Assembly: GCA_022340775.1 (NCBI GenBank)
Contig: JAJDNH010000057.1
Location: forward strand, 1 to 47,638
From: Acidobacteriota bacterium
GTDB taxonomy: Bacteria > Acidobacteriota > Thermoanaerobaculia > Thermoanaerobaculales > Sulfomarinibacteraceae
Reading direction: 5' to 3'
Length of the DNA stretch: 47,638 bases
Positions 20,165 through 37,472 of the stretch are shown here, one piece after another (within the stretch, counting starts at the first letter, position 1; each line of letters starts with the position of its first letter). The notes under the pieces were generated by a model. The model was not told the DNA's origin and did no database searches. It saw only the letters and a list, made by a program, of their open reading frames with translations. A program made the translations under genes and the position numbers.

Positions 20165-20272
20165 GGCAGATCCGCGGCCTGTGGCCGCACCCCTCGGGGA
20201 CCGTCAGTCCGTCCTCGAGGCAAGCCCCGGTCCGTCCTGCCGGCCCCGAGGGGCCGCTCCGCTCGGATCTGC
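20165..20272. repeat. 108-nt direct repeat, copy 1
   Basis: ggcagatccgcggcctgtggccgc...cgctccgctcggatctgc; ungapped match to 20724..20831 with 10 mismatches by hand count. Confidence 0.9.
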
Positions 20273-20723
20273 TTCCAGGGTGCTCTGAGAGGGGAGTGAG
20301 CCCCCCACCCTTTTGAGAGAAGAGGGATCGCGCAGGAGCGCCCTCTCGCACCCCGCGGCTGCGCTCACTTCGTCGGCACGACCACGAGGTCAGTGCACTC
20401 CTCGCTCGCTGGCGGCGAGGCACGAGGAGAACGTTCTGCGCGATCCTGCTAGCACAGGCGTGCCGTGATCGCATGTCCCGTGCGGGCTTCGCCCGCCGCC
20501 CGCTGCGCGGGCCGGCGGGGCAGGAACGAACCGGCGCGTTGGCTCGTGGCTGCACCCGCCGAGGACGCCGGGGAGCCTGTGCTCGGAGGCCTACCCTCCG
20601 AGGCCTCCGGGCCAAGCCTCCTGCGCCCGGTCCCCCCGCCGCCCGCTGCGGGATGGCCGCTCGCCTCCTTCCGCTCCGCCCCCGCCCCACCGCGGGACCG
20701 TCTCTGGTGAGGCATCCGGGAAT

Positions 20724-20831
20724 GGCAGATCCGCGGCCTGCGGCCGCGCCCCTCGGGGGCCGTCAGTCCGTCCTCGAGGCAAGCCTCGGTCCGTCCTGCC
20801 GACCCCTAGGGCTCGCTCGGTTCGGATCTGC
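20724..20831. repeat. 108-nt direct repeat, copy 2
   Basis: ggcagatccgcggcctgcggccgc...ggttcggatctgc(c); begins GGCAGATCCG and ends CGGATCTGCC (10-bp inverted ends). Confidence 0.9.
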
Positions 20832-20934
20832 CTCCTGAGTCGCTCGAGGGAAGGAAGAACGAGTCGTAGCGATTCAGAGTTTTGAGAGGCCCGGGCGGAG
20901 AGCCTGTTTGTACCCGTGTTGGCAATTCTCAGGC

Positions 20935-21091
20935 CCGGGTTAGCCAGGCGCGATGGTAGCGAGAGCGGCGAGACGGTTGTCGGGGCTGGGATCTGAGCGT
21001 CGAGCTGCCGGAGGCAGACTTTCTGTCTGTTGAGGACAGCGAGACGTGAAGAGCACGGCCCTGGCTGGCGTATCGTCGCTCGCAGTAGATT
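20935..21091 (+). repeat. 157-nt interspersed repeat, uninterrupted copy A
   Basis: Matches 37002..37054 + 37331..37434 without gaps; flanked by AGGCCCGGG (20931..20939) and CCCGGGCCT (21094..21102). Confidence 0.88.
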
Positions 21092-21104
21092 AGCCCGGGC
21101 CTCC

Positions 21105-35306: not shown

Positions 35307-36779
35307 ATGAGCGACCAGGTACCGATCGGACTGACCTTCGATGACGTGCTGCTGGTGCCCGCCAGGTCGGAAGTCCATCCCAACCAAGTGGACGTACAGA
35401 CGCGCCTGACCCGAGGCGGCATGGCGCTGCAGCTGCCGATCGTCTCGGCCGCCATGGACACGGTCACCGAGGCCACAATGGCGATCGCGATGGCCCAGCA
35501 TGGCGGGATCGGCGTCGTTCACAAGAGCATGAGCATCGAGCAGCAGGCGGCCGAGATTGACAAGGTCAAGCGCTCGGAGTCCGGGATGATCGTCGACCCG
35601 GTGACCATCCATCCGGAGCAGCTGGTGCAGGAAGCGCTGGACGTCATGGCCAGGTACCGGATCTCCGGTCTCCCGGTGGTCGACACCCACGGTCAGCTCA
35701 AAGGCATCCTGACCAATCGGGACCTGCGCTTTTGCACAGAGTTCGAGAGGCCGATCTCGGACTTCATGACCAAGCGCGAGCTGGTGACGGCGCCCGTCGG
35801 CACGACGCTCGACGAGGCCAAGGCGCTGCTTCACCAGCACCGCATCGAGAAGCTGCTGGTGGTCGAGGCGGACGGCGCCCTGCGGGGCCTGATCACCGTC
35901 AAGGACATCAAGAAAGCGCAGGACTTTCCGAACGCCTGCAAGGACGAGCTCGGGAGGCTGAGGGTAGCAGCGGCGCTCGGTGTTACCGGCGACATCGCGG
36001 AGCGATGCGCCGCCATGGTCGAGCGCAACGTCGACCTGCTGTGCCTGGACAGCTCTCACGCCCACTCGCGGGGCGTCATGCAGGCCGTCGAACGGGTCAA
36101 AGCGAGCTTCCCGGATGTGCCGCTGATCGTCGGCAACGTGGCGACCGGCGACGGAACGCGCGATCTCATCGACCTGGGAGTCGATTGCGTAAAGGTCGGT
36201 ATCGGGCCGGGCTCGATCTGCACCACCCGGGTCGTCACCGGTGCCGGCATGCCTCAGATCACTGCGATTCAAGAGTGCGCGCGGGTGGCGCACGAGCTCG
36301 GAGTCCCGATCATCGCCGACGGCGGCGTGCGCTACTCCGGAGACATCACCAAGGGGCTGGCGGCCGGCGCCGATGCGGTCATGATCGGCTCGTTGTTCGC
36401 GGGCGTCGAGGAGTCGCCGGGAGAGCAGATCCTGTACCAGGGGCGGACCTTCAAGGCGTACCGTGGGATGGGCTCGCTGGGCGCGATGAAGTCGCTCGAC
36501 AGCGCTCGCGATCGCTACTTCCAGGACGATGCCGAGCTCGCCAAGCTCGTACCCGAGGGGATCGAGGGCATGGTGCCTTACAAGGGACCGCTCTCCAACC
36601 AGCTGACGCAGCTGGTCGGTGGGCTGCGCGCGGGGATGGGACTCTCGGGGTGCGCCAGCATCGCCGACCTGCATAGCAAGGCCCGTTTCATCCGAGTTAC
36701 CGGCGCCGGTCTCAAGGAGAGCCACGCCCACGACGTGGTCATTACCAAGGAGGCGCCGAACTATCGCGTCGAGCGGTAG
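35307..36779 (+). CDS. guaB: IMP dehydrogenase
   Basis: [21 protein letters not shown], two CBS domains, [16 protein letters not shown] active-site loop. Confidence 0.97.
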
Positions 36780-36801: not shown

Positions 36802-37001
36802 GAAACAGGTCGTCTCTACGCTGCAATCTCATGTCGGCGAGACGACTATGGAACCGCCCGAGAGCGTTCCCGGTTGAGAGTGTTCGTCCCTTCAGAGCCC
36901 GAGAAGGCCTCGGTGGAGGGCCCACTCGTAGTGAGATTCGGGAGGCGTGCGACATGCACGCTTCTTTCTCGCGCCGGAGCCTCCCATGCTCTCTTCCAAG
37001 T

Positions 37002-37434
37002 CCGGGTTATCCGGGCGCGATCGTAGCGAGAGCGGCGAGACGCTTGTCAGGAGCAGAGGCCCGGCCGGTGGCCTCGATGCTGTCCGTTGCGTGCGCCACG
37101 GGCACAGATTCGAGGCGCCGCACCGCGGGCGATGTCGTTTCATCGTCAAGGTGCTGCAACGAAGAAGATGGGCCCGTGCCGCCGCAACCCGGAGGGCAGG
37201 CCCGGCTTGCGGCCTATCTCTGCGTTGCTCGTCGTCGCGGTACCTCAGGGGCTACAGCTTCCTCCTCGCGCCTTGATCTCGACTCCAAGCCGGGTCTGCG
37301 GACGGTACCGAGGCCACCGACCGGACCTCTACGATCTGAGCGTTGAGCTACCAGAGGCATACTTCCTGTATGTTGAGGATAGCGAGACGCGAAGAGCGCG
37401 GCCCTGGCTGGCGTATGGTCGTTCGCAGTAGATT
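37002..37434 (+). repeat. 157-nt interspersed repeat, copy C, split by a 276-bp insert
   Basis: 37002..37054 plus 37331..37434 align without gaps to 20935..21091; most identity in the first 47 nt (5 mismatches in ~50) and last 102 nt (11 mismatches). Confidence 0.88.
37055..37330. mobile_element. 276-bp insert with 22-bp terminal inverted repeats (MITE-like, no ORF recognised)
   Basis: AGAGGCCCGGCCGGTGGCCTCG (37055..37076) and CGAGGCCACCGACCGGACCTCT (37309..37330), 20/22 complementary; exactly absent in copy A. Confidence 0.72.
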
Positions 37435-37472
37435 GCGAGCGGATGACCCGGGCCAGGGTACAATCCGGAGCT

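Follow-up and report, generated by a model that had tools for sequence, protein, structure and literature searches.

The 276-bp insert that interrupts a dispersed repeat in this acidobacterial genome is a real, nested, non-autonomous mobile element, and its first reading as a MITE-like insert was right, if too modest. In our judgement it is probably a 272-bp MITE, one member of a family spread through the Acidobacteriota, whose cargo is an inverted pair of one conserved hairpin with a likely role as RNA. The family is multicopy and mostly intergenic, with defined ends, CTAG sites and a conserved, strand-biased single-strand fold. The window, i.e., the entire stretch of 47,638 nt that was analysed, is one complete contig (C69) of a 3.83-Mb draft genome in 251 contigs and has a G + C content of 66%. 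The element is flanked there by guaB, with its end at 36779, and gmd (from 37473), lying upstream of gmd and not between convergent genes.

The count of 20 inversely complementary positions in the 22-bp ends (AGAGGCCCGGCCGGTGGCCTCG and CGAGGCCACCGACCGGACCTCT) was reproduced, and as a self-match the inverted repeat of the insert measures 32 bp (84%, E = 1.4e-6). The repeat copy at 20935–21091 does represent the empty site, since the 157 nt that remain after excision of 276 bp match it without a gap, 136 of them being identical at the originally chosen start. The best deletion start lies at 37052–37053 (138/157 identical), 2–3 nt further left, a shift that is predicted by a 4-bp duplication at 37053–37056 and 37329–37332. 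The earlier note had seen no target-site duplication but probably missed one: a degenerate, decayed CTAG-type duplication is probably present, with GCAG on the left (37053–37056) and CTAC on the right (37329–37332), neither site being assigned to a strand. Both sites were placed from the deletion start, from empty copies of the interrupted repeat (CTGG or CTAG) and from relatives with intact CTAG. At the insertion point, the empty copies carry CTGG in 14 of 18 cases and CTAG in one, and the same element in another genus (L043 and L053) is bounded by TTAG/CTAG and CTGG/CTAG.

Among 38 non-redundant elements from many genera, a set chosen to have CTAG-like sites at either end, the site-to-site distance is mostly 269–274 bp, with modes at 271 and 272. 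These sites and this spacing place the element proper of the window at 37057–37328 (272 bp, + strand), with ends that are the same in the own-genome copies and in other genera. Its terminal inverted repeats occupy 37057–37076 (+) and 37309–37328 (−), which pair with each other, the left one matching the inverse complement of the right one at 20 of 22 positions if the AG of the site is counted. In a wider survey without a site filter, CTAG on both sides was by far the commonest combination (29 of 88 element-like matches). In one genome (G060), different CTAG sites carry seven full copies that are almost identical, and there is also one 55-bp palindrome consisting of the terminal repeats only; another genome (G100, L165) contains a tandem pair of copies with one CTAG in common. 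The palindromic CTAG could belong to the element ends rather than to a duplicated target. As first noted, no transposase is encoded within the 272 bp; an overlapping 171-aa ORF had no Pfam match.

In its own genome the insert was found at nine places, as eight copies and a fragment of 43 bp that remained after an internal deletion, and seven of the nine match at least 248 of the 276 bp, so that chance does not account for the copies. The interrupted repeat, here called module B (~186 bp), is present in about 30 empty copies and in seven with the insert. The family alignment places the interrupted copy of the window at 36999–37052 and 37333–37456 (both +), the right part ending in CCAG where other copies have CTAG; an empty copy, also identified by the gap-free match to the insert-free sequence, lies at 20932–21101 (+), with a right end ~10 nt shorter. 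One locus (L007) harbors the insert without module B, indicating that the insert is an independent unit. Several copies with the same ends, and both filled and empty sites, are thus present within the own genome at paralogous positions, and the full 276 bp with the same ends occurs in other genera at 72–75% identity, in agreement with the non-autonomous, MITE-like character proposed in the earlier note. The insertion point is common to all filled copies of module B, and most of them have the decayed left site GCAG. The filled copies may derive from a single event, after which the composite spread, or from several, as the outer arms of the window copy belong to a different module B subtype from those of the other filled copies.

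Module B also has a structure of its own. Its copies (36999–37052 with 37333–37456, 20932–21101, and L009–L030) fold into a long covarying hairpin in which both sides have changed in 21 of 65 pairs, the wobble pairs show an extreme strand bias (G.U 153 versus A.C 9), and the TAG stop of the neighbouring gene is often provided by the right end of the module. A further structured repeat, module A, lies directly upstream at 36905–36998 (+; boundaries approximate), and the same block was found upstream of module B at L015, L018, L020, L021 and L026. Its second place in the window is ~20865–20931, and it directly precedes many module B copies; the similar end motif reported at 20885–20898 is indeed present upstream of the empty copy but is part of this other repeat. 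A direct repeat of 117 nt (89%; 20165–20281 and 20724–20840), with similar sequence to the right of module B at L028, is probably another dispersed repeat. One filled module B (L005, contig C184) contains an extra ~66-bp G-rich insertion in its right arm (~1847–1912) and was thus interrupted twice, and one insert copy without the left terminal repeat (L006, 1403–1957 of contig C136) is situated between tRNA-Gly and tRNA-Cys genes.

The insert, for which the earlier note had suggested folding as RNA, contains two inverted hairpins of ~105 nt that covary and are strand-polar. Arm 1, also termed the M unit, comprises 105 nt with conserved purine-rich internal loops (37086–37190, +; R1 114.2 bits), and arm 2 is an inverted, diverged copy of it (37194–37299, −), with an opposite-strand R1 match of 23.9 bits that reaches 67.9 bits in relatives; the scores of the two strands are tens of bits apart, and the strand assignment of the arms is based on this. 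The family also includes one-arm forms, 189 bp long (L138 and L175). In an alignment of 24 copies of arm 1, 95% of the cells of 29 pairs are paired and both sides have changed in 14 of the 29. The covariation score is 0.312; shuffles gave 0.121, and sliding the partners gave no more than 0.078. A helix needed only in a folded single strand accepts G.U but not A.C, and on the opposite strand the two change places. Counted as cells, which are not independent events, in an arm alignment fitted to the structure, the wobble pairs number 125 G.U and 36 A.C in arm 1 and, in its own orientation, 34 and 8 in arm 2. After clustering at 80% identity, the G.U:A.C ratios are 51:13 (p = 1.9e-6) and 25:6 (p = 9e-4), respectively, while the terminal repeats, with 19 G.U and 20 A.C, show no strand bias. 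Because the bias is seen in the arms and not in the terminal repeats, we read the ends as behaving like double-stranded transposase sites and the arms as behaving like folded RNA or single-stranded DNA. Selection acts on the interior of the insert as a folded single strand, and the label MITE alone does not account for this.

No Rfam family matched the element above the gathering score and a search at a loose threshold gave chance matches only, which rules out a known Rfam RNA family as its identity. HEARO and omega RNA, together with other dispersed structured RNAs, belong to mobile elements. The present family resembles HEARO/omega RNA in being dispersed and multicopy with a covarying, RNA-like fold, but it differs in that it matches no Rfam family, lacks an ORF and has the fold twice, in inverted orientation, instead of once.

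None of the copies examined in the own genome is inside a called gene, and their commonest setting is between convergent genes. Among 76 distinct loci from many genomes, two are inside a called gene, 18 lie between convergent, 22 between tandem and two between divergent genes, the remainder having a called gene on one side only or on neither. As judged from gene calls made with a simple codon-usage script, 37 of the 71 genes directed towards an element have TAG as their stop codon, and 24 of the 71 stop within 12 nt of its edge.

Taken together, these data are best explained by the following scheme. A transposase supplied in trans would read the terminal repeats and prefer CTAG. The cargo consists of two copies of one hairpin, and since these are inverted, a transcript arriving from either side would meet a correctly oriented hairpin first. 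The element is nearly always intergenic, mostly on the downstream side of genes, and often gives them their TAG stop through its terminal CTAG. There the hairpins may act as RNA in mRNA 3' ends, as a transcript boundary, a stabiliser or a protein-binding site, and such a role would keep them conserved while the ends of the element change. In the home genome, the element would have inserted into a CTRG site midway along module B, and the composite, now at seven places, may have spread as a unit. That the strand concerned is RNA rather than single-stranded DNA is what we infer, and a role of the hairpins as RNA at the ends of genes is the interpretation with the best support, short of a demonstration.

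The transposase partner was sought among IS1380, DDE_Tnp_1 and Y1 genes and none was found in the genomes searched, which are incomplete drafts. The earlier note had proposed to look for a full-length, transposase-encoding element with the same TIRs; our search found no such long form. IS1380, considered for a resemblance to the ends of module B, was rejected as parent, no gene being found in the own genome or in the other family-bearing genomes searched. DDE_Tnp_1 (IS4/IS5 type) was rejected as well: the own genome lacks such genes, G000, G100, G112 and G048 have none, and the loci in other genomes do not have the sought TIRs. The unpaired TIR ends in G089, a genome with a local TIR family (e.g., CTAGCAGCCCGTGGTAGAAGTC), were contig ends or solo ends and not parts of an autonomous long form. 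RAYT or TIRYT genes were likewise rejected as mobiliser, with no physical link to the element and neither arm nor CTAG end at the Y1 loci examined. Several of the IS630, IS701 and IS1182-type transposases are compatible with target sites of the form CTAG or YTAR. Many MITEs have no known parent, and an autonomous parent is not a strict requirement.

The Y1 genes bear on a different and, we think, unlikely explanation, namely that the family consists of very large REPIN-like elements, in which an HUH (Y1/RAYT-type) transposase would recognise the inverted hairpins in single-stranded DNA and CTAG would replace GTAG. The inverted hairpin pair, the tetranucleotide tag, the intergenic 3' location and the strand-polar folds would all fit, as would the TIR-only palindromes of 55–66 bp that occur in the family and the Y1 genes in most of the genomes in question. 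However, Y1 genes are present in almost every genome and are equally common with or without the element, all of the Y1/RAYT loci examined are flanked by other repeats (the GGTGCCAGGC type, the GGGGTCAGGC type or GTAG REPs), and the strand-neutral terminal repeats also argue against this explanation. GTAG REPs, BIMEs and REPINs go with RAYT transposases, and REPs are 20–40 bp long (PMC3733652). The family shares with these its inverted hairpins, a tetranucleotide tag, a position mostly downstream of genes and plausible transcription, but its hairpins measure 105 nt, its 272-bp unit has CTAG at each end and its terminal repeats are long; it has neither the GTAG tag nor the 20–40 bp palindrome, and no cognate RAYT gene was found among the Y1 loci examined.

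TIR repeat families associated with TIRYT genes are known from Acidobacteria (PMC3733652). Two Y1 tyrosine-transposase genes of the own genome, at L102 (C207) and L103 (C229), have inverted flanking repeats of 33–38 bp of the GGTGCCAGGC type, a layout that fits the published TIRYT pattern. These are likewise inverted repeats in the same phylum, but they are unrelated to the ends and arms of the element. In addition, GTAGCGGTCGAC inverted repeats, which look like classical GTAG REPs, occur next to Y1 genes at L209 and L217, in two genomes (G091 and G089) that also carry CTAG elements.

The distribution of the family is patchy, with many copies in some genomes (per-genome counts being "at least" values). 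Within the class, 49 of 149 genomes, from 34 of 70 genera, gave matches to the hairpin covariance model; in a phylum-wide sample the figures were 64 of 396 genomes and 41 of 211 genera. A strict DNA pattern matched only Acidobacteriota among ~85,000 species genomes, although this pattern is narrow and absence elsewhere is not proven by it. Plasmid records queried with the G091 end gave chance matches in coding genes only, and no viral contig with the G060 end was found. The terminal repeats vary by lineage (CTAGCAGCCCGTGGT, CTAGCAGGCTGCTGAAAAA, CTAGGAGCCTGTCCGAGT, CTAGTGTAGTGTTTCG and CTAGAGGCCCGGCCGG) and are well matched within each copy, measuring 14–22 bp in the 38 related elements. It is rather improbable, in light of this distribution, that the family is an ordinary MITE with functionless hairpins, conserved only through the youth of the copies or a common parent. 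Young, near-identical families do exist (G060 and G140), but the arms are recognisable in the 34 and 41 genera just counted, and compensatory changes with strand-polar wobble are not expected from neutral drift of double-stranded DNA. Bacterial MITEs are mobilised in trans by DDE insertion sequences. The family resembles them as a short, non-coding, multicopy and intergenic element with terminal inverted repeats and a 4-bp site at both ends, but differs in that no parent was found and in its interior of near-fixed length, with conserved covarying hairpins across families with different ends. Very improbable, finally, is the view that no insertion occurred and that the insert is a variable branch of module B, kept in some copies and lost in others: module B is itself strongly covarying and holds the insert inside its long hairpin, but copies at L007 and in other genera and families stand outside module B, with relatives bounded by their own CTAG, which largely refutes it.

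The preferred reading is therefore a MITE that carries a conserved pair of hairpins. A literature search found no paper on a hairpin/CTAG element family in Acidobacteriota, the nearest being the REP/TIRYT survey (PMC3733652). We suggest, tentatively, that an undescribed class of mobile structured RNA might be represented here, in which phylum-wide hairpins travel as the paired, mirror-image cargo of changing transposon ends, so that a correctly folded hairpin is added to the message of whichever neighbour is transcribed.

The small transposon relics of bacteria are commonly regarded as passive debris, and ordinary debris of this sort would not show a conserved single-strand fold. In this family, the ends and the interior follow different rules, the ends being strand-neutral and the interior a conserved folded strand across many genera of one phylum. 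The family is readily found by combining the covariance model with the CTAG ends. Should the hairpins function as RNA, host genes would obtain ready-made mRNA 3' ends and stop codons from these elements, which would offer a testable natural case of a mobile element that is kept useful, or harmless, by its own RNA.
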